A stretch of 22,618 bases of DNA from a virus. The stretch spans positions 1,939 through 24,556 of the IMG/VR virus record IMGVR_UViG_3300029787_000201; one strand, given 5' to 3'. The position numbers were made by a program, and so were the translations under genes. How positions within the stretch are numbered: position 1 is the stretch's first letter; every line of letters starts with the position of its first letter. This document shows, one piece after another, positions 11,480 to 22,618 of the stretch. The notes beneath the pieces are model-generated. The model did not search any database, was not told the origin of the DNA, and saw nothing but the letters and a program-made list of their open reading frames with translations.

Positions 11480-11695
11480 TTAATTTAATTTCAATATAAG
11501 AGCAACAACAATTCCTATTAAAGTTGTAATAATAAATGCAGAACTTGATATCATTATTTTTTCTAATCTATGGATATCTTCATGTAAATCTTTAATTTTT
11601 TTATTAGTTTCTCTTTGCATAATTAAGCAAAGTTTTTCGTGGTCATCTATTCTTTGATGAGCTAGGGAGTCTTTACTGGTTAACTTTCTTGGCAC
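11480..11695 (-). CDS. Small coiled-coil membrane protein, holin/XhlA-like candidate
   Basis: A 71-residue protein from GTG 11695. A TTG at 11701 is also open, but the strong AGGGAGGT site is only one base from that TTG and a suitable seven bases from the GTG, so GTG is chosen. The order is a charged N-terminus, a coiled-coil helix with heptad hydrophobics (about 30-46), then a single C-terminal membrane segment (SAFIITTLIGIVVALIL) with a short tail. This layout resembles the XhlA family and small phage holins, so it may help permeabilise the membrane at lysis. No lysin gene is adjacent, which weakens that reading; a membrane anchor for ejection is an alternative. The gene overlaps the end of the large ejection-type gene by 23 bases. 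Confidence 0.55.
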   Translation of the reverse strand: MPRKLTSKDSLAHQRIDDHEKLCLIMQRETNKKIKDLHEDIHRLEKIMISSSAFIITTLIGIVVALILKLN

Positions 11696-14093
11696 TGACA
11701 ATACCTCCCTTATTAAATAAATTTAAGGCTGATGCTAATTGTGGGTTTGATACACCAGTTGGAGTAGCAGCACCTCCTTGATTTATAATAGGAAAATTAC
11801 TCTCAGGAACATTTGGTAATGGCACTCTGTTATCTTCTACTTGTTGTTCAATGGAATCAAAATAATTTTCTAATCCACCTTTTACTTCAGCAGCTTCAGC
11901 TTCAGGTATAATTCCTAATGTAACTAATCTACCAAGCATTTGATTGTAAACTGATTGCATTCTTTTAGGTGTGTTTGTTTTTTGAACAACCTCTTCAACG
12001 GCAGACTTAAATACTAATTGTTGAAACTTAGGATCAAGCATTGCTTTACCAACATATTTAGGTGCAATTAAAACTCCTAATGCTGGTAAAATACCACCAG
12101 CTGCAGCGGCACCCCCAACTGCAACGTTAGCAGGAGAAAATAATCCTCCACCAAATTGCAATAATTGTCCAGCTGCTCCTGCTTGTTTTAACTGAATTAA
12201 AACACCACCAGGTATACCACTTATATCTGATATTCTACCTTGTGCAAAACCAAGAGTAGTTTTTAGTTTTTCAATTTTTTGTATGTCCGTTGAATTTGGA
12301 AATAATTTTTTTAAAGTTTCTGCATTGTTATCTAATGCTTTTGTAAATTTTCTAATATCATAAAAACCACCAAACTGCACATCCTCTACAAATGATCGAG
12401 ATAACATGTTCTGTAAGTAATGACCTCTTAAACTATCTTTTAATGTTTTGGCTTCAGCAGTTGTAATTGCATTACCGATTGCTTCTTTAAAAGCAGGATT
12501 TTTAGTTAGTTGAGGTAGTTGGTCAATATCACTTAATACTCTTGTTAATAAATCAGTTTTTTCTCCATCAGTTATACTTTTAAATACAGATCCTAAATCA
12601 GCAGTTTCTCTAGCTCCTTTAGCTAGTAATGCAACAGTTGTACCTCTTGCAAATACGTCCATACCTTCCTCGTAAAATTTTTTTGCAGACTCTAAAGCAT
12701 CTGCTGCTTTAGGATTCAAACCAGACTTTCTTAAAAAATCTGGAGACATCATATCGTCCATAGTTTTTATAATATTTTGTAATTGAAACAAATCATCTTT
12801 TGGTAAACCTTGTGTTTTTAAAATTTGTCTATCTGCAGCTACATCAGATCTTATCTTTGCTAATTGTTTATAAGAGACTAAACCGTTAGGTCCAGTCGGG
12901 TCAGCAAATTTATTTAAATCACCAGATAAATCCTCTAAAGTTTCTCTTAATTTGTTTCTTCTTCCAGATCCTAATCCTGTTCGTAGGTTTTCTTGAAGTT
13001 CAGCGACAGTTTCACTTAAACTATTTTTTGTTCCTACTTTTTCAAAAATACTTAATGCTGGTTTGGCTTTTGCTGTACCCAACAAATCATCAACCTTTTG
13101 ATACATAGAATCAGATGCAGTTCTAAATAATTGATCTGCATTATTAAACATATTTAAAAACATAGTTCCAACTTCAGATTTATTTTGTGCTAAACTCCCC
13201 TCAGTTAAATCTTGCACCATGTCATATGCTACTTTATCTCCTACATCTTTTAATGCTCTATATCTGCCTGCAAATCCTGAACCTCCCAAGATTGATTTTG
13301 ATATAATAGTTTCAGCAATATTAATTCCTTGATTATTAGTTTTAAATGCTGGTGTTAATCCTTTTTGTGCTTCAACGGCAGATCTTTTTAATGTTTCAAA
13401 TTCATCAGCTGGTATATTTCTTGATTTCATGTAATCTTTAATTACTTTATCGTCAGGAACTAAACCTTTTAATGCCTCTAATTGTTTTGCTGGACTTAAT
13501 TTCATTAAGCTTTCTGCAGTTGTTTTTCCATATAATATTTCATAAGACTTATTTTTAAGGGTTTGTTCTGCAACATCACTTCCTTGTAAGACCTCTGCAA
13601 ATTGTCTAGGTTTTGCTGCACCTAAGATTTTTGAAATAATTGGAGCTGCTTTAATTGCTAGAGGTGCACCAATCGCTTCCCCTAAAGCTCCTTCTCCAGC
13701 TGCTCTTGTAACTTCTTTAATAACATTTTCACTAGGGTCAAAAGTTTCTGCAACTAAGGCACCCCCAGCACCACCCGCAGCAGATCCTGCAGAAGCCTTA
13801 GCAAGTGCTCTTATAAAAGGCATACTTCTCATCCCAACATTAGCTGCAATTCTAGGAAGTGAAAATCCTCCAGTTGCAATTGAACCAGCAATAGAACCTG
13901 CAACCTCAGTTAGTATTCTACCAAAGTTAGGGCTATCAGAATATTCTGCTGCTGCTTTGTCAGCCACTGAGTCACCAACTTTATCAGCCATAAGAGTTTC
14001 TAATGCTCTACCTATTTCTTTGCTTTCTGCTTCAGTAGGTGCATCTCCCTCTATCTCAACTACTCCTAAACCTTGTACGTTTATTTTTCCCAT
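11673..14093 (-). CDS. Large internal virion / DNA ejection-type protein
   Basis: An 806-residue protein. It opens with a short conserved-looking segment (VQGLGVVEIEGDAPTEAE). A Gly/Ala-rich hydrophobic stretch follows at about 63-115, then long helical regions, a second Gly/Ala-rich hydrophobic stretch at about 645-677, and a C-terminus containing LFNKGGI (792-798). Size, helical content, membrane-active-looking segments and position after other virion genes fit an internal or ejection protein that forms a DNA channel through the host envelope in podoviruses. No transglycosylase or protease active site is visible. It follows the 298-aa gene with a 1-base gap and lacks a strong ribosome binding site. 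A tail tape-measure-like role is an alternative. Confidence 0.6.
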   Translation of the reverse strand: MGKINVQGLGVVEIEGDAPTEAESKEIGRALETLMADKVGDSVADKAAAEYSDSPNFGRILTEVAGSIAGSIATGGFSLPRIAANVGMRSMPFIRALAKASAGSAAGGAGGALVAETFDPSENVIKEVTRAAGEGALGEAIGAPLAIKAAPIISKILGAAKPRQFAEVLQGSDVAEQTLKNKSYEILYGKTTAESLMKLSPAKQLEALKGLVPDDKVIKDYMKSRNIPADEFETLKRSAVEAQKGLTPAFKTNNQGINIAETIISKSILGGSGFAGRYRALKDVGDKVAYDMVQDLTEGSLAQNKSEVGTMFLNMFNNADQLFRTASDSMYQKVDDLLGTAKAKPALSIFEKVGTKNSLSETVAELQENLRTGLGSGRRNKLRETLEDLSGDLNKFADPTGPNGLVSYKQLAKIRSDVAADRQILKTQGLPKDDLFQLQNIIKTMDDMMSPDFLRKSGLNPKAADALESAKKFYEEGMDVFARGTTVALLAKGARETADLGSVFKSITDGEKTDLLTRVLSDIDQLPQLTKNPAFKEAIGNAITTAEAKTLKDSLRGHYLQNMLSRSFVEDVQFGGFYDIRKFTKALDNNAETLKKLFPNSTDIQKIEKLKTTLGFAQGRISDISGIPGGVLIQLKQAGAAGQLLQFGGGLFSPANVAVGGAAAAGGILPALGVLIAPKYVGKAMLDPKFQQLVFKSAVEEVVQKTNTPKRMQSVYNQMLGRLVTLGIIPEAEAAEVKGGLENYFDSIEQQVEDNRVPLPNVPESNFPIINQGGAATPTGVSNPQLASALNLFNKGGIVSAKKVNQ

Positions 14094-14094
14094 T

Positions 14095-14991
14095 TTATTT
14101 CTTTACTAGTTTGCCACCTTCAAAAACATATAAGTCAGCTGAAGGATCATAAGTTAATGATTCAGGGTCTACATTAATTCCAAGTTTTGAAAAAGCATCT
14201 TTATAATATTCCATATTACCAGCATCACTTACGGTGCCACTAGCATCAAGTCTACTATCAATCTCTGCTAATTTTTCTTTCATAGTATTTACTTTTGCAA
14301 TAATAACATCTTCATTGTCAGTTATTGTAGGTAATAGTGCATTAAAACTCGCTTCCTCCAAAGGACCAACTTGTGCACCCCTTAAAGCTTTAATGGCACT
14401 CTTTTTAAATTCTTCAATTGTAACATTAAAAGCTGCAGCTTTAGGATTCATGTTTAATGCTGCAGTAGCTTTTGCTATTCGACCAGATATAGGTCCACTT
14501 CCTATTTCTTTAACACCTAATAAAATTTTATCTGCTTGTTTTATTGTAGCTGATCTATCGGCTGCTTTTTCTCTCTCACCAAATGTAGGTTTATCAGCAA
14601 TACCAGTTACTACACCATTTTTTACTTTTACTACTAATCTATCCGCTTTATTAAAACCTAATGATTCTTTTTCAGCTGTTGTTGCAGATCTTACTGACTC
14701 TACAGCTTCTTTTTTTTGTGCTTTTTCTAATGCTATTAAAGTTGTAGGTAATTTACTTGTACCTTCTCCAACAGCTCTAAGAGTCCCTGTTAACAAACCC
14801 TCTCCTTGTCTTTGTGTAGATTGTAATAAAGGTGCTGCAAAGGTAGCTGCAATAATTGCTTTTTCTCTACTTGATAAACCACCTTCTTGAAAATGTTGAA
14901 TATTTGCAATACCACCCTTGTTAAATTTTTTAGGTTTGTTAATTTTAAAATATCTATCTCTAAACATTTTTCTTGTTAATACAGAATCCAT
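14095..14991 (-). CDS. Probable virion/ejection protein with two GG motifs
   Basis: A 298-residue protein, basic at the N-terminus. It carries FNKGGI (23-28) and FQEGGL (34-39) ahead of an Ala-rich hydrophobic segment (IIAATFAAPLLQ) and a largely helical remainder ending in a small beta region. It shares the short GG motif with its neighbours on both sides, which suggests joint work in the particle. No enzymatic motif is seen. ATG 14991 has a GAGG site four bases upstream, and the gap to the preceding gene is one base. A minor capsid or ejection protein is the best guess. Confidence 0.5.
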   Translation of the reverse strand: MDSVLTRKMFRDRYFKINKPKKFNKGGIANIQHFQEGGLSSREKAIIAATFAAPLLQSTQRQGEGLLTGTLRAVGEGTSKLPTTLIALEKAQKKEAVESVRSATTAEKESLGFNKADRLVVKVKNGVVTGIADKPTFGEREKAADRSATIKQADKILLGVKEIGSGPISGRIAKATAALNMNPKAAAFNVTIEEFKKSAIKALRGAQVGPLEEASFNALLPTITDNEDVIIAKVNTMKEKLAEIDSRLDASGTVSDAGNMEYYKDAFSKLGINVDPESLTYDPSADLYVFEGGKLVKK

Positions 14992-14992
14992 G

Positions 14993-15832
14993 TTACCTCG
15001 GTTGCATTAAATTATATGTAGAGTAAGCACCTAAACCAGCGCCTAATGCTTGACCTAAAGGATTTGAACCTGGAGCCGTGGATGCTGTAATTGTACTCTG
15101 TGTAGTTGGTAAATTAGTCATAATTCCTTTTAAGAATTCTATTCTTTGGAATGGTTCATAAGATCTTTGTAATGCAGTTTGTCTTTGTGCATCTAATTGT
15201 GCTTGACCAATTCCTCTTTGTAACGCACCTGCTCGCATCTGTGATTGGATGTCTGCAAGACCCATAGCTTGTTGTTGGGCACCAACACCTGCTAAAGCTT
15301 GGCCAGCAGCTAATTGCTGTTGTCTTTGAGTTTGAGCTGCACCTAATGCGGTTTGAAAACCTTGTGCTTGTGCTTGACCAATATTTGCTAATCTGGCTCT
15401 TTCAATTTCTGCTTCAGCAATTCCTTGTCTAGCACCACCGAACGCACCACTCATAGCTGCTTGTGCACCTAATCTGTTTGTAGCCATTCCTGCTTGTCTT
15501 GTTATTTCATCAGTAACAAATGATTGAAAAGGATTAAAAAATTGTTGTATGTTTGGAGCTGAGATACCTTGTTGTAACGAACTTATACCAGCACCTACTG
15601 TTCCAGCACCCACTCCCGTTTGTCCAGCTTGTGTAGCAGCTGCAGTCTCTAAAGCAGATATAGGAGCAACCTGCATTGCAGGTAAAGTAACTGGGCTTGC
15701 TGCTAATTTAGCAGCTTGATCATAAAGTGATAGTTTTCTAGCTTCAACACCTGGAGCTTCTCTTTGCGTCACAACTTGTGAACCAGTTTGTGTAGCTGGT
15801 GCTGATCCACCACCTCCAAAAATAAAACTCAT
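14993..15832 (-). CDS. Gln/Ala-rich probable ejection or tail protein
   Basis: A 279-residue protein with a Gly-rich start (MSFIFGGGGSAPA), a central helical Ala/Gln-rich region with many QA repeats (about 125-225), and a Gly/Ala-rich end. The segment RLGAQAAMSGAFGGARQGIA is a pattern I recall from virion-module proteins of marine phages. The composition suits an extended helical internal virion or DNA-transfer protein. It has a good ribosome binding site (GAAGGAG, eight bases from the ATG) and overlaps the preceding GNAT-like gene by one base (TAATG). No catalytic motif is visible. Confidence 0.55.
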   Translation of the reverse strand: MSFIFGGGGSAPATQTGSQVVTQREAPGVEARKLSLYDQAAKLAASPVTLPAMQVAPISALETAAATQAGQTGVGAGTVGAGISSLQQGISAPNIQQFFNPFQSFVTDEITRQAGMATNRLGAQAAMSGAFGGARQGIAEAEIERARLANIGQAQAQGFQTALGAAQTQRQQQLAAGQALAGVGAQQQAMGLADIQSQMRAGALQRGIGQAQLDAQRQTALQRSYEPFQRIEFLKGIMTNLPTTQSTITASTAPGSNPLGQALGAGLGAYSTYNLMQPR

Positions 15833-16293
15833 TAATTCATCTCCTTCGTATATAAATATCTTTTAACATCCCAACCTTTAGTTTTTAAAAAAGGTTGCCA
15901 CCCTGGTCTTGCATGCACTGCAATTCTTTTGCATTTTGTTTCTTTAGCAAGAGACTCAATTTTATTTGCAAGTTTATCTTGCCATAATTTTCTTTTTTCA
16001 CCTTTTAACAATATTACTTCACATTGTTTAAAATTTGGTAAAGCTACTATCCTTGTAACACAAACACCAAACGCCTTATATCCTTCACCATCATCCGAAC
16101 CAAACATAAGATGTAATTGCATAGAACCTTCTTTTAATAATTTTTTTAAATCAATTATACTCATAGGGTCCCCATCATATTTTAAGCCCTCTCTCAACAT
16201 AAATTCACAAAGATCCCAATAGGTATCTAAAGTTTGAGGATAGATTTCTAAAACCTCTATCTCTTTTTTTATTTTAATTTTTATTGCTTCCAT
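15832..16293 (-). CDS. GNAT-fold acetyltransferase-like protein in virion module
   Basis: A 153-residue protein with a GNAT-like layout. Strands around YKAFGVCVTRIVALP lead into a Trp-containing helix (WQDKLANKIESLAKE), then the strand KRIAVHARPGW and FLKTKGWDVKRYLYTKEM, matching the family's late strand, loop and final strand. GNAT proteins acetylate amines using acetyl-CoA. The usual pyrophosphate-binding Q/R-x-x-G-x-G/A loop is not clearly present, so the protein may be a structural or divergent member. Small GNAT-like proteins occur among phage virion genes, with unknown purpose. Its start lies 20 bases inside the upstream gene, and its stop overlaps the next start. Confidence 0.6.
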   Translation of the reverse strand: MEAIKIKIKKEIEVLEIYPQTLDTYWDLCEFMLREGLKYDGDPMSIIDLKKLLKEGSMQLHLMFGSDDGEGYKAFGVCVTRIVALPNFKQCEVILLKGEKRKLWQDKLANKIESLAKETKCKRIAVHARPGWQPFLKTKGWDVKRYLYTKEMN

Positions 16294-17173
16294 TTGTTAT
16301 ATCGTAAATTCTTTTAAATTGTTTTTGTTGATTATAAAAAAAATCTGATCCTGCTTTTCTCATTCCTTTAAAACTTTTTGGGTCCGCACCAGATAAAATA
16401 CCTGCACCTAATACAGCGTCTGCACGTGATACGAATTCTCCATCGGCTAATTGTGCTAACATAGTATCTTCATCTTTATCACCAACTCCTGCTCCGTCTT
16501 CAACATAGCCAGTAGCTCTTACATAATTGTTAACATCATTTTCATCGTGATCTACTTTTGAAGGTAAGTAATTTACACCACCAGTATTAAATTTTGGTAA
16601 TGCAGTAGCAAGTCCACCTTCATTTGCATAAAACATATTTTGTCCTGTCACCTCTGTTCTTGTTGGCATTGCAGCACTAACAGGTGTAAATGCATTTTCT
16701 AATTTTTGGGCTTGTTCTTTGTAAGCTTGTTTATAATCTTCTTCAGTAAATACTGGTTTAAGAGGTTCTTCCTCACCCATTAATAATGGAGTTAAAGCTG
16801 CAGCAGTGGTTAATTTTCCAAGAGTGGACATACCAAGTATACCACTTGGTTTGTTTTCTTTAGCTAGCTTTAATGTTGCTTTACCTGCCTCTGTATCTAC
16901 ACCTTGTTCAACGGCTTTTTCTGATAAAGATTTAAATAATTCCTTATTTCCTTTTTGTCCTTTAATTGAACTTAAAATATTACCATCACCTATGTTTCTT
17001 ATTGTGCTAAAAGGTGTTCCTTGACCAATGTTCATATTGGCACCCATTGGAGTCTGGCCAAATGCATAAGCACCACCACCTACAAAGGCAGCATCTTTAA
17101 GTGCTGTTCTAGTTGATTTGCCTCTTAATTTTTGAACGCCAAATGTGGCTAATGCAAGTGTAAATGGATCCAT
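16274..17173 (-). CDS. Probable internal virion protein with DGEFV motif
   Basis: A 299-residue protein. It has a hydrophobic Gly/Ala-rich first third, two short GG motifs (YANEGGL 182-188, FNTGGV 195-200), an acidic stretch (VEDGAGVGDKDEDT), then LADGEFVSRADAVLGAG (242-258) and an aromatic/basic C-terminus (FFYNQQKQFKRIYD). The DGEFV block is a motif I recall from many tail tape-measure and internal virion proteins of phages, though its function is not established. An AGGA sequence sits nine bases before the ATG. The gene follows the glycosyltransferase pair after a 35-base gap and overlaps the GNAT-like gene by 20 bases. Confidence 0.6.
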   Translation of the reverse strand: MDPFTLALATFGVQKLRGKSTRTALKDAAFVGGGAYAFGQTPMGANMNIGQGTPFSTIRNIGDGNILSSIKGQKGNKELFKSLSEKAVEQGVDTEAGKATLKLAKENKPSGILGMSTLGKLTTAAALTPLLMGEEEPLKPVFTEEDYKQAYKEQAQKLENAFTPVSAAMPTRTEVTGQNMFYANEGGLATALPKFNTGGVNYLPSKVDHDENDVNNYVRATGYVEDGAGVGDKDEDTMLAQLADGEFVSRADAVLGAGILSGADPKSFKGMRKAGSDFFYNQQKQFKRIYDITNGSNKN

Positions 17174-17208: not shown

Positions 17209-18084
17209 TTATTTAAGGGCTATCAACTCATCGTAAAACTTACCTTGATATTGATGCTCTCCTACATGGACTATTGAATCATTTACAAAGGCATAACATT
17301 TACCACCAATATTTCTCCACAGCTGACAAAATGCAAAATCTTCACCATTAAATGTTTTAGTTTCAGGATCAAAATGAGTGTCAAAAAAATTCCACATGTG
17401 GGGCTTATTTACATAATCTCCGTTAATTACTGTCTTTTGAACAATTTGTTTTTCAGGATATTTCTCTATCATTTTTTCTATAACCTCCCTTTTTATAAGC
17501 ATGCATCCAGTAGGTGAGTCAGTAACTTCCATGACACCTTTATCTAAATTAATATTTTTTACATCAGGAACTTTCATTGGATAAGTATGTAATGCTCTTC
17601 TAATATCATCAGGATGATTAATTTTACCTTGTTGAATTTTTCTAAATGCTTTATCCCACATCAAAGTTTTTAAGGGGTATGGCACAGAGATTACTTCCTT
17701 GTTTGCTTTTAACATTGAAAAAATAGATTTGGGTTGAAAATAAATATCTGAGTCTATAAATAATAAATGTGAGGCTTTTGATTCTAAAAATCCAGCTACA
17801 CATAAATTTCTACCTTGTGTAACCAAAGAAGATTTTATTAAATGAAAAGATACTTTCATCTTTTTTTTAAAACATTCTTGTTGAAATTCTATTAAGGCTT
17901 GTGTGTAATGTATTGAAACATCACTATGTACTGGAGTGGCTAAAAAAATTTGATATTTAGTAAACTCGTCACTCTTAGTTTTCCATAAAGGTGTAGTTGC
18001 TAATTCATAATCTGATTGACCTTCAACTTTATGTTCACTTAAAGTTTGATAGGTATCTTCATTTATATATTTATCGCTTGACAT
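17209..18084 (-). CDS. GT-A fold glycosyltransferase
   Basis: A 291-residue protein with a nucleotide-sugar transferase core: FLATPVHSDVS at the first strand (about 47-57), LVTQGRNLCVAGFL (87-100), and the metal-binding DxD-type motif FIDSDIYF (109-116). Further on are a conserved-looking SPTGCMLIKREV segment, GEDFAFC, and a His-containing end (VHVGEHQYQGKF). The layout resembles GT2 and Anp1-like families. It transfers a sugar from a nucleotide donor; the acceptor could be host surface polysaccharide, a virion protein or modified DNA. It has a good ribosome binding site (AAGGAG, six bases from ATG) and overlaps the upstream GT4 gene by 14 bases, so the two enzymes are probably made together. 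Confidence 0.8.
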   Translation of the reverse strand: MSSDKYINEDTYQTLSEHKVEGQSDYELATTPLWKTKSDEFTKYQIFLATPVHSDVSIHYTQALIEFQQECFKKKMKVSFHLIKSSLVTQGRNLCVAGFLESKASHLLFIDSDIYFQPKSIFSMLKANKEVISVPYPLKTLMWDKAFRKIQQGKINHPDDIRRALHTYPMKVPDVKNINLDKGVMEVTDSPTGCMLIKREVIEKMIEKYPEKQIVQKTVINGDYVNKPHMWNFFDTHFDPETKTFNGEDFAFCQLWRNIGGKCYAFVNDSIVHVGEHQYQGKFYDELIALK

Positions 18085-19000
18085 GTAAGGCTCCTTGTAA
18101 AAATCTAGTCCACTCTTGACCTTTTTTATCCCAACTATAAAAATTTTTATAATACTCTTGTTGTTTATTTAAGTGTTTTTGAATAATATCATTATGTAAA
18201 TACTCTGCAGTCACATCTATCGCTTTAGCAAAAGAGCTAGCCATTAATTCACGATCGTTTGTATAATTTATATAGACAGGCCATTCAGCACAAGTTTCTG
18301 GTAGAGCACCAAAATTTGTAGTTATAACATGTAAACCACATGCTAAAGCTTCTAACGCTGATGCACAAAAGGTTTCTTCAAATATAGATGGGTACACAAA
18401 AAGATCATAATCTGTCATATGCTCTAAGACATATTCATTTGGTTTATATCCAATGTAGTTAACATTTGGTAATTCTCTTGCTTGATCATAAAGTTCTTTA
18501 AAATCTGTTTCTACTCTATCAGCAAATTCACTACCATATACATGACAAGAGCTATAGACATCTAAAGTTACATTTTTATTTTTAACCATTTGCATTGCTA
18601 ATAACAATACATTTAATCCTCGCCAAGGTGTGCAATGATGAATTATTTTTATGGGATCACCTTTTTTATAAACTTTTCTATTAGGAAAATGATGTGCTCC
18701 ATTTTTAATTACTGTGCATCTTTCTGTGGGTATATTAAAAAAGTATCTAAATTTTTCGTAGTTCCAATGACTATTAAAAACATACCAATCGTATTCTAAA
18801 TGCCTTTCTTTATTTGTAAAAAAATTTTGTAAATTAGGTTGATCGTAGGAATTTTTTTGCCATAGTATGTTTATTTTACTTGGGTCTAATGGGACTTTAC
18901 CAGGTATTGATGTACAAATTTGAAATTTATTTAATAAATCTTTTGAAACATATTTTTCTAATAACTCGTGTTGTAGTTCTGTTGCGCCTCTAGGTTCCAT
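18071..19000 (-). CDS. GT-B fold glycosyltransferase, family 4 type
   Basis: A 309-residue glycosyltransferase. The N-terminal domain starts with GATELQHELLEKY, typical of the acceptor-side Gly loop. A middle strand/loop (KIIHHCTPWRGLNVLLLAM, 118-136) is the usual start of the donor domain. EETFCASALEALACG (208-222) gives the E-x7-E motif (E209, E217) of GT4 enzymes and is followed by ITTNFGALPE. It is about 50-80 residues shorter than many bacterial GT4 proteins, mainly at the N-terminus, as is common in phages. It probably builds a glycan with the GT-A enzyme encoded immediately downstream. The start has only a weak ribosome binding site, six bases after the previous stop. Confidence 0.85.
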   Translation of the reverse strand: MEPRGATELQHELLEKYVSKDLLNKFQICTSIPGKVPLDPSKINILWQKNSYDQPNLQNFFTNKERHLEYDWYVFNSHWNYEKFRYFFNIPTERCTVIKNGAHHFPNRKVYKKGDPIKIIHHCTPWRGLNVLLLAMQMVKNKNVTLDVYSSCHVYGSEFADRVETDFKELYDQARELPNVNYIGYKPNEYVLEHMTDYDLFVYPSIFEETFCASALEALACGLHVITTNFGALPETCAEWPVYINYTNDRELMASSFAKAIDVTAEYLHNDIIQKHLNKQQEYYKNFYSWDKKGQEWTRFLQGALHVKR

Positions 19001-20306: not shown

Positions 20307-20467
20307 GATAAAAAGTAATTAAACGTATCTTGTTCATTTTTAAATTCTTGTTGATATGAAGTGTTTAACTTATCTTGCATTGTTCGTAAAGACTGATTTA
20401 TTTGTCTCTGGTTTTCTTCAGTATATACTGGCTTTGGTTCTGGAATTACTATATCTATTCTTGCCAT
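20303..20467 (-). CDS. Small helical protein linked to the tail protein gene (54 aa)
   Basis: A 54-residue frame beginning MARIDIVIPEPKPVYTEENQ and continuing as a Gln/Asn-rich helix (QRQINQSLRTMQDKLN) to an aromatic end. Its ATG overlaps the stop of the large tail protein as TAATG, and its stop overlaps the next ATG as ATGA. It therefore fills the 160-base gap exactly, and coupling at both ends makes it a convincing gene. A short coiled-coil adaptor or chaperone for the tail protein is plausible; no family name is known to me. Confidence 0.7.
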   Translation of the reverse strand: MARIDIVIPEPKPVYTEENQRQINQSLRTMQDKLNTSYQQEFKNEQDTFNYFLS

Positions 20468-22618
20468 TATCTCATTCCATCTGGTTGTATATCAGCCCTA
20501 AAAGTTCCAAATCTCCAATTTTGTTCTGTAGAGGTATTTGCTATTTTTAAACTTGCAAATCTAGCTCTAGCTCTCGTGTCTACTTTTTTAGTCGAAGAAC
20601 TTACTGTAAAAGGTCCTAACGGAGATGATGTTTCGGTATCAGCAGGAAAATCTCTTAATAATATTGTAACTTGGGCATCACCTTGTATAGTTTTGAAATC
20701 TGGAATAAATCTTCTCATACTTATAAACATTTGACCTTCGCCATCAACATTTAGACTAAAATCTCCAGATTCTATAAATGCGGGTATAGCAGTTTTGACA
20801 CCTGAAGAATCTACATTGTCCACACCAACTTCATGCGCATAGTATTTTGTCGAACCATTAATATTAGTTACACCTTGCACGACAGGAAATGTTGGAACGT
20901 CAGTCGAAGTAAACTCAGTTGCATATGGATGATCATATAAATTAGCATCAGTCCAAGTAGTTCTTGATAAAGAGCCAGTTACCCAAGTGCCGTCTTGATA
21001 ATTAAAACAAACATATCTGTCGTTAAAATCTGATCCACTTTTAGGATAATACCAACATAATTCTTCGTAAAGATTATTTAGTCCTGCATAAACTTGTTCT
21101 CCGTTTTGATAATTAATTCCTAAATTGTTTCCATTTTTTGTTGTAAAAACAAAATCTTCGACAGTGCATGGTAAAGCTTTTACTGTTCCATCATAAACAA
21201 AAAATCCTCCAGCTTCACCCATCCAATATACAGCTCCATTTACATATTTAATAGAATGTTGTCCTATAGCTCCACAATTTGATCCAACTTGTCTTATGGA
21301 AAAAGTAAACGGAGGTCCTACAAACTGCATTACATAAGCAGCATTATCAGTAAGTATAAATGTATAATCTTTACCTTTGACTGCACCTATAATTTTTGTG
21401 CCTGAGTCTAATCTAAAAGTACCTGCTGTGTTAACTGAGGTAGGTGTATAGTCACTAATATTTTCTTGATCAGAAAATCTAATAAACATTTTATCTTGAG
21501 TAGTTTGTGTTCCTATAGTCGTTTCTGTTCCAAACATAATTAAGTGCCTATCTCTATCTGATACTAAAGACATAACTGATGCTGTAGGGGCATTAGAAAT
21601 TACAACAGCTCTTGTAGTTAAAGCACTAGGGTTAGAGTTAATTGGGTTCCAAGAAAAAGACCTACCATTTTTTACAGTAGCAATTAATTGTTCTCCAAAA
21701 TTGTCTAATGACCATGAGGCTGGGTCTATAGTTAGTGTTTGTGATAATGAAGCTACGCCCCATCCAGTATAATATTCTACGCCTGCCCCACTTGAGTGTG
21801 CAGACCTCGTACCTCCAGCTGCTCTAGTAATTCCTGTAAGATCGTTTGATGAAATTCCTGTGTAAGAAATAAACTCTGCGCCAACTTTTATCGTACCCGT
21901 TGTTGGAAACCCAGTGGTTGAAGCAAGTGTGATAGAAGTTCCTGATCCTCCCGTTCCAGCTGTGTCATCTAACAAAGCACCATTTAAAGTGCTAAATAAT
22001 TGTTGTCCTCCACTCCATAAACCTGTGCCCCAACCAAATCCATATGTAAAACCTAAAGAACCTGGTTTGACATAAGGATTAACAACTGCAGACCCACTGC
22101 CGTTGACCGTGGTCCCTGCTGCGCTAGCCATGGTAATAGTAAACTCATCACTACTAGGCACACTAATTACTTGAAAAGTATTTGTTGTAAAATCAGAAGC
22201 ACTATACCCAGCACCACTAGGAGGGGTGACTGAAGTAAAAGTAAAAAGATCACCTGCTTCTAATGAGTGTGCAGCCTTATTTACCGTAACAGTAGCTGAT
22301 GTATTTACTGTATCAAAAGTGCATGAGGTTAATGCAGTGTCTAAAGGAGTAATATCAAAAAAAGCGCCTTCATAATAAATTGCTAAAATTTTATTTGTTC
22401 CAATAGCAGCATATCTTCTTCCATCTAAATCTGCCCAAATAAATTGTTCTCTTGCAGCTCCAACTAATTTACTACTTAAAATTTGCTCCCAACCACCTAT
22501 TTTTTCAGGCAATCCATATCTAAATCTTACAAAGTCACCATCTGTCCATTGACCTTCAGCACCAGTTTGTGTGACTTGTTTGTTGAATCCAGGAGCTATT
22601 CTTACTTTTGTTAAAGGC
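20467..22618 (-). CDS. Large tail/neck structural protein (5' end cut by window)
   Basis: The frame is open to the right window edge, giving at least 716 residues. A TTG at 22512 could be read as a start, but in-frame sequence upstream (PLTKVRIAPGFNKQ, then GQWTDGDFVRFRYG) is clearly coding and looks like the true N-terminus, so the start is probably just outside. The protein is beta-rich with many aromatic and Gly residues. It resembles large podovirus tail or stabilisation proteins of P22 gp10 type, recalled without alignment. Two inserted-looking modules are visible: at about 22332-22072, with AHSLEAGDLFTFTSV, and at about 21942-21775, with ITLASTTGFPTTGTIKVGAE. It probably closes the head-tail junction and retains packaged DNA. 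Confidence 0.75.
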   Translation of the reverse strand, partial: PLTKVRIAPGFNKQVTQTGAEGQWTDGDFVRFRYGLPEKIGGWEQILSSKLVGAAREQFIWADLDGRRYAAIGTNKILAIYYEGAFFDITPLDTALTSCTFDTVNTSATVTVNKAAHSLEAGDLFTFTSVTPPSGAGYSASDFTTNTFQVISVPSSDEFTITMASAAGTTVNGSGSAVVNPYVKPGSLGFTYGFGWGTGLWSGGQQLFSTLNGALLDDTAGTGGSGTSITLASTTGFPTTGTIKVGAEFISYTGISSNDLTGITRAAGGTRSAHSSGAGVEYYTGWGVASLSQTLTIDPASWSLDNFGEQLIATVKNGRSFSWNPINSNPSALTTRAVVISNAPTASVMSLVSDRDRHLIMFGTETTIGTQTTQDKMFIRFSDQENISDYTPTSVNTAGTFRLDSGTKIIGAVKGKDYTFILTDNAAYVMQFVGPPFTFSIRQVGSNCGAIGQHSIKYVNGAVYWMGEAGGFFVYDGTVKALPCTVEDFVFTTKNGNNLGINYQNGEQVYAGLNNLYEELCWYYPKSGSDFNDRYVCFNYQDGTWVTGSLSRTTWTDANLYDHPYATEFTSTDVPTFPVVQGVTNINGSTKYYAHEVGVDNVDSSGVKTAIPAFIESGDFSLNVDGEGQMFISMRRFIPDFKTIQGDAQVTILLRDFPADTETSSPLGPFTVSSSTKKVDTRARARFASLKIANTSTEQNWRFGTFRADIQPDGMR

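Follow-up and report, generated by a model that had tools for sequence, protein, structure and literature searches.

Why should three proteins encoded in one gene block of a phage carry the same short peptide, in which an aromatic residue is followed by two or three mostly free residues, GG and an aliphatic residue? We investigated this for a stretch of 22,618 nucleotides (positions 1,939 to 24,556, hereafter the window) that sits inside the viral record IMGVR_UViG_3300029787_000201, the whole of which is 32,377 bases. The proteins, of 806, 298 and 299 amino acids (aa), are the products of g806, g298 and g299, probable ejection (internal virion) proteins of a phage whose closest named relative is Pelagibacter phage HTVC023P. 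The motif copies, the block genes, g73 and the tail protein gene described below all lie on the minus strand. We propose that the motif may be a short linear docking motif of ejection proteins in HTVC023P-like pelagiphages, a tentative reading that we prefer to its rivals and stop just short of calling probable.

Copies and conservation of the motif

All five copies quoted in the preliminary description of the window were present as given there. The C-terminal copy of g806, FNKGGI at residues 793–798 (11700..11717), was seen in the translation. The copies in g298 are FNKGGI at residues 23–28 (14908..14925) and FQEGGL at residues 34–39 (14875..14892), and those in g299 are YANEGGL at residues 182–188 (16610..16630) and FNTGGV at residues 195–200 (16574..16591). 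These were the only occurrences of [FYW]x2-3GG[ILV] in the window, with none in the remaining 23 of its 26 genes and none in the 18 open reading frames (ORFs) of the record outside the window.

In composition shuffles of the three proteins, the strict form was observed four times against a mean of 0.17 (0 of 5,000 shuffles) and the relaxed form five times against a mean of 0.33 (p 0.0002). Shuffles over all 26 proteins gave p-values of only 0.0046 (strict) and 0.0126 (relaxed), and all these values are optimistic because the motif was picked after the sequence had been seen. An equal frequency in shuffled or non-virion proteins, which the preliminary description had named as grounds for dropping the motif, was not observed. 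In the window the motif was in three of the four block proteins and in none of the 22 others (Fisher p 0.0015). In HTVC023P it was in three of four block proteins (five hits, 0.55 expected) and in one of 82 others (one hit, 4.0 expected; Fisher p 0.00015).

Conservation among close relatives was stronger evidence than the shuffle statistics. The motif was present in all 45 distinct g299 sequences (two copies in 44, three in one) and in all 37 distinct g298 sequences, whose first 75 residues held two copies in 22 and one in 15, and zero in none; the window itself is among the g299 sequences counted, and a fragment of it is among those of g298. In g806, the motif lay within the last 14 residues in each of the 20 relatives with a stop codon, ten further sequences being uninformative as they run off their contigs. 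The motif was found in none of 21 other gene families, 15 of which had at least six distinct sequences. There was some search bias, as one of the six g299 search patterns and one g298 pattern overlap the motif. The g806 gene was never a query, most g298 relatives came via the g299 query, and two further searches used patterns outside the motif.

The codon pattern was the strongest single point in the case for conservation. With 21 to 45 sequences per site, the aromatic residue was F or Y, both glycines were invariant and the last residue was I, L, V or M, the residue before GG was free (K, E, T, N or Q), and third positions varied in every motif codon. Because third codon positions vary while the aromatic residue, the glycines and the aliphatic residue stay fixed, selection on the motif is judged from these alignments to act at the protein level. 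The g806 copy is a clear example: 15 different 18-mers encoded the motif in 21 sequences, and pairwise identity among these averaged about 0.2–0.6 along the body of the protein versus 0.97 over FNKGGI, with bodies diverging down to 25% identity with g806 of the window. (This comparison took g806 proteins 780 residues or longer whose last 20 residues contain GGI, a filter that removed only the ten open-ended sequences.) In the other two proteins, mean pairwise identity was 0.81 at residues 181–200 of g299 versus 0.18–0.65 at 21–180, and 0.71 at residues 21–40 of g298 versus 0.30–0.60 at 61–298, in alignments of 35 of the 45 and 26 of the 37 sequences, respectively. The residues after GG were also conserved in g806 and g299.

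That the motif reflects chance and common ancestry, with no function, is scarcely credible. The modest single-genome statistics over all proteins and the post hoc choice of the motif would favor such an explanation, but the residues are fixed across divergent proteins whose synonymous sites vary freely. We rejected it on the shuffles and the codon pattern, the sequences not being near identical.

The g806 copy required separate consideration since the end of this gene overlaps the start of g73 (window 11673–11701), an XhlA/holin-like gene (11480..11701; Pfam XhlA E 2.8e-4, below the curated cut-off). The motif DNA, AAR-GGN-GGN, is Shine-Dalgarno-like, the presumed g73 start (GTG or ATG) is four bases after the motif, and a GGAGG core was present at the motif in six of 21 sequences. 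It is likely, from the sequence, that this DNA doubles as the ribosome-binding region of g73, and the conservation of the residues after the g806 motif counts for less because those residues overlap g73. The overlap would explain part of the conserved SAKK tail. To regard the g806 copy as a by-product of the ribosome-binding site and the overlapping start of g73 is nevertheless very hard to sustain, and this explanation was largely refuted: in the ten codons around the motif every third position varies, as much within KGG as elsewhere, with F and I fixed, and no gene start is near the g298 and g299 copies. As the sole cause of the motif, a Shine-Dalgarno by-product was ruled out by the codon pattern.

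The preliminary description regarded the three proteins as otherwise unrelated, a statement that needs amending for g299 and g806. Profile comparison aligned residues 17–203 of g299 with 618–801 of g806 at a probability of 64%; the maximum among 30 column-shuffled controls was 3.4%, and a reversed profile gave 0.4%. Once the last 26 columns of g806 were removed, the probability fell to 2.0%, which places the signal in the tail, near the motif. At the core of the match, which includes the second g299 copy, LATALPKFNTGGV of g299 resembles LASALNLFNKGGI of g806, and the two proteins have in common a longer element, LAxxLxx[FY]NxGG[VI]. A slightly relaxed form of this element occurred in all 45 g299 sequences and in 19 of 31 from g806 (that set of 31 includes 10 truncated ones); the other families were without it. 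The likeness of the single-sequence 13-mers was only suggestive, being equaled in 8 of 300 shuffles, and the score of the LAxxLxx flank (13) was reached by 12 of 7,118 window 7-mers.

The probable ejection gene block and the tape-measure-like module of g299

From the gp10-like tail protein as far as the helicase, the genes of the window are ordered as in HTVC023P, and by sequence the window belongs to a pelagiphage of the HTVC023P type whose tail protein resembles P22 gp10. This 716-aa "stabilization" protein (20467..22617; phrog_3287 E 2e-83) defines the phage type. Downstream of it are two probable glycosyltransferase genes, then g299, g153, g279, g298 and g806, and then the holin-like gene, an arrangement of the P22 type for a podophage, in which the gp10-like tail protein precedes the block. 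The two probable glycosyltransferase genes (window 17209–19000) stand between the tail and ejection genes in HTVC023P and HTVC027P as well.

Four genes of the block are probably those of ejection proteins, based on their position, a family match of g279 and the related phage phiM5, whose particle proteome is noted to include three proteins from the matching block. Sequence comparison identified g299 (16274..17173) as a probable ejection protein with a tape-measure-like C-terminal module. The g279 product (14993..15832), which is without the motif, matched PHROG_4287 ("DNA ejection protein", E 1.2e-7) and is the synteny anchor of the block, aligning in hhalign with its counterparts in DSL-LC04 (99.8%) and HTVC027P (96%). 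The assignments of g298 (14095..14991) and g806 (11673..14093) are by position alone. The latter, a probable large ejection protein with a divergent body and a conserved tail, corresponds in position to the "DNA transfer protein" of DSL-LC04 and to P22 gene 16, and it had no significant match in family-library searches. Across the block, family similarity was seen for g279 (PHROG_4287) and g299 (tape-measure-like), with g298 and g806 unmatched. The small gene g153 (15832..16293) also lies within the block, and five related podophages have, at the corresponding place in their block, a gene with a (putative) acetyltransferase annotation.

Profile comparison found no similarity of g298, g299 and g806 to P22 gp7, gp20 and gp16, and on that basis we rejected their membership of those families; g279 was likewise unmatched to these P22 proteins. 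An N-terminal domain common to g806 and P22 gp16 was considered, and no support for it was found. A Foldseek search with the g298 model gave no match at E 0.001 or better. Sequence searches of the PDB with g298 gave no match, and no solved tape measure protein, and those with g279 gave only Kelch proteins at E 0.016 or worse, which we took as chance.

The AlphaFold models of g299 (from 35 sequences) and g298 (from 26) were poor, with a mean predicted local distance difference test (pLDDT) score of 51.7 and 60.4, respectively. Both g299 copies fell in a predicted coil at residues 179–248 (pLDDT about 30) and both g298 copies in a predicted coil at residues 19–39 (pLDDT 35–38), so that in these models the motif is predicted to lie in disordered segments. 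The g298 copies are also within a conserved N-terminal head of about 95 aa (14707..14991), identified from the alignment of relatives, which opens with a VLTRKMFR box. The head is common to the relatives, and the body behind it occurs in at least two dissimilar versions. The features expected of a short linear motif, namely fixed residues, free neighbors and disorder on different proteins, were all found, the disorder coming from the low-confidence models of g298 and g299.

The tape-measure-like module of g299 (residues 213–251, ...DTMLAQLADGEFVSRADAV; 16421..16537) follows directly after its motif copies. It was identified by a profile match to 8zdo_S (E 1.1e-4), the tape measure protein of mycobacteriophage Douge, the matching part of which falls outside the traced residues 1,658–1,699 (PMC13033339). 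The g299 counterparts of HTVC027P and DSL-LC04 also matched PHROG tape measure families (2.7e-4 and 5.9e-9), and the tape-measure core DxxxAxLxxGEF[VI] was found in g299 only. Tape measure proteins of siphophages have a DGEFV-type module like that of g299 with aromatic-GG elements nearby, before the module (FRDGGPV in TIN2, YAAGGLL in Lolly9).

This likeness bears on a further explanation, in which the motif, inherited from a tape-measure-like module and spread with it, serves as a structural glycine turn or a flexible hinge anchored by its aromatic residue and has no single partner. Similar elements do adjoin the module in tape measure proteins, and glycine turns may suit proteins that must unfold and refold. 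However, the aromatic and aliphatic residues of a generic hinge ought to be replaceable, yet here they were F or Y and I, L, V or M, respectively, in every copy counted. In addition, the profile alignment sets the tape-measure aromatic-GG element against GYVEDG (222–227) of g299 rather than against its two motifs, which are upstream of the aligned columns, and g298 and g806 have no such module. We therefore regard the hinge as unlikely.

Range of the motif and points against a docking role

Beyond the close relatives, patterns outside the motif led to g299 relatives at four loci of cellular assemblies, three of them labelled Maricaulis and one Pelagibacteraceae, and [FY]xxGG[VI] was kept in all four. 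The last of these, a contig of uncultured Pelagibacteraceae AG-919-D18, whose AG- name suggests a single-cell genome, is assigned to a genome of the SAR11 type; it holds a relative of the whole tail-to-ejection region and may tie a distant member to its host.

When 12 gp10-type phages were scanned, nine, including HTVC027P and 023Pt, were without the core motif in their block proteins. Among the others, DSL-LC04 had two motif copies in its g299 counterpart, a number of hits not above chance (p 0.18), and MW202675 and MinM2 had one hit each in a block protein. Sister lineages have GG elements of their own. The HTVC027P-like g298 counterpart has MFRKGG[ND]V at its start in 18 of 18 intact N-termini (two more were cut), the 023Pt type has MFRGG[PS]V in four of four, and the HTVC027P-like g299 counterpart has a GGRI[GN][FY] element in 16 of 16. 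The g806 counterparts of both types end in a different conserved peptide, GLTxxExxLLxxxEkxxRxxqR-like. At one locus (L081:2706-6733) two ORFs, of 918 and 422 aa, stand in place of a single large ejection gene, perhaps owing to a frameshift or an assembly error. The lack of conservation in relatives that the preliminary description had allowed for thus held in part: the motif is kept in close relatives and lacking in nine of the 12 gp10-type phages, and its exact form, judged on these sequences, belongs mainly to one clade.

Several of the observations weigh against a docking role. In HTVC027P and 023Pt, which have the same tail type, the ejection proteins lack the core form, and four distant g298 counterparts, three of which keep a VLxRxxFR box, are without the N-terminal GG motif, as the g806 counterpart of DSL-LC04 is without the terminal one. 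The related GG elements (MFRKGGNV, YADGGRIGY) were not significantly enriched in HTVC027P (p 0.27), whose non-block proteins exceed chance for the broad GG pattern, and the enrichment in 023Pt was modest (p 0.012). In HTVC023P itself, one of the five block hits, FGLAGGL in gp83, is off the conserved sites. The overlap of the g806 copy with the ribosome-binding region of g73 weakens the conservation of the last residues as evidence, and low pLDDT in poor models need not mean disorder. Lastly, the capsid, portal and scaffold genes are outside the window.

A candidate docking motif and comparable known systems

As we envisage a docking motif, its consensus would run from F or Y through two or three largely unconstrained positions (N or Q being frequent in the first) to GG and then I, L, V or M; it would occur in one to three copies per protein and be extended to LAxxLxx[FY]NxGG[VI] in g299 and g806. 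Three of the four ejection proteins would display it on flexible segments, at the N-terminus of g298, in the middle of g299 and at the C-terminus of g806. There it would bind one shared virion partner during procapsid assembly, and proteins with changing bodies would thus be gathered inside the head. The preliminary description had offered docking peptides or capsid-interior sorting tags among its explanations. These fit the confinement of the motif to the block, its conservation, the predicted disorder and the protein-level constraint; the partner is supplied by inference. More broadly, the presence of the proteins in the virion, binding by the motif and the identity of what it binds are all inferred from sequence.

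The candidate partners are the scaffold, the coat or another ejection protein. The scaffold (or coat) seems the likeliest by analogy, because P22 ejection proteins enter procapsids only with the scaffolding protein, the portal not being needed (PMC8402733). In addition, a 2025 structure led to the inner end of a scaffold column being proposed as the docking site for ejection proteins (PMC12005531).

A different role, in which the motif acts after ejection or between ejection proteins by linking g299, g298 and g806 with one another or with g279 in a trans-periplasmic conduit, is possible and fits the facts nearly as well, as the motif distribution would be the same. Tape measure proteins with the DGEFV-type module of g299 are also released and are thought to form a channel (PMC13033339), and the aromatic-GG elements that precede this module in siphophages would be consistent with such a role. 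However, g279, the ejection protein best conserved between lineages, is without the motif, and we consider the conduit role somewhat doubtful.

Proteolytic processing in head maturation or ejection, also raised in the preliminary description, has a precedent for g298 in P22 gp7, which loses its first 20 residues to the host protease OpdA, leaving KGGKG (PMC8402733). The gp7 sequence reads ...SYPE-KGGKGG and the first g298 copy FN-KGGI. Processing nevertheless fared less well as an explanation and appears improbable. Residues other than K also occur before GG, the sequence following GG is kept in g806 and g299, and a cut after the g806 motif would remove only five to eight residues. The profile match of g298 to gp7 was 0.2%, and P22 with gp7 lacking its leader still has about 60% of the normal burst (PMC8402733).

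Little is understood, even for P22, of how podophage heads select their ejection proteins (PMC8402733), and a peptide common to three co-packaged proteins would make this question testable by peptide fusion. We speculate further, with considerable reservation, that the motif could constitute a hitherto unreported peptide code by which ejection proteins are loaded, the phage equivalent of the targeting peptides of encapsulins: whatever body is joined to LAxxLxx[FY]NxGG[VI] or F[NQ]xGG[ILM] would be brought into the head. If true, this code would explain the free swapping of ejection-protein bodies with fixed tags. It would be of relevance to the phages of the very abundant SAR11 bacteria and might provide a tag with which cargo could be packed into phage heads. 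When a library of papers was searched for five of the peptide strings and FxxGG, no phage paper was among the matches, and the term "short linear motif" was absent from the matches listed in a search on such motifs in ejection proteins. A search on pelagiphage virion proteomics turned up, in the portions of text available, only cyanophage and Shewanella phage work.

Among known systems, P22 is similar to the window phage in having a gp10-type tail protein with its ejection block, gp7, gp20 and gp16, downstream. Its ejection proteins are recruited through parts of the chain, the N-terminal parts of gp7 and gp20 being sufficient for procapsid entry (PMC8402733), but none of the GG sites in the three P22 proteins fits [FYW]x2-3GG[ILV]. 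In T4, as for the proposed tag, a short peptide suffices to package an internal protein, ten residues of IpIII targeting fusions into heads (PMC8402733). The T4 sequence is N-terminal, whereas the copies here are found at the N-terminus, internally and at the C-terminus. Encapsulin targeting peptides (GSLxIGSLK, GGDLGIRK) are likewise short, glycine-rich and hydrophobic, and usually sit on a flexible C-terminal tail (PMC10960027). Compared by eye, the aromatic-x-x-GG-aliphatic motif departs from their GSL/GGDLGI-type consensus. Encapsulin peptides bind the interior of an HK97-fold shell (PMC10960027) and, by analogy, the motif of the window phage may bind its coat protein in a similar manner.

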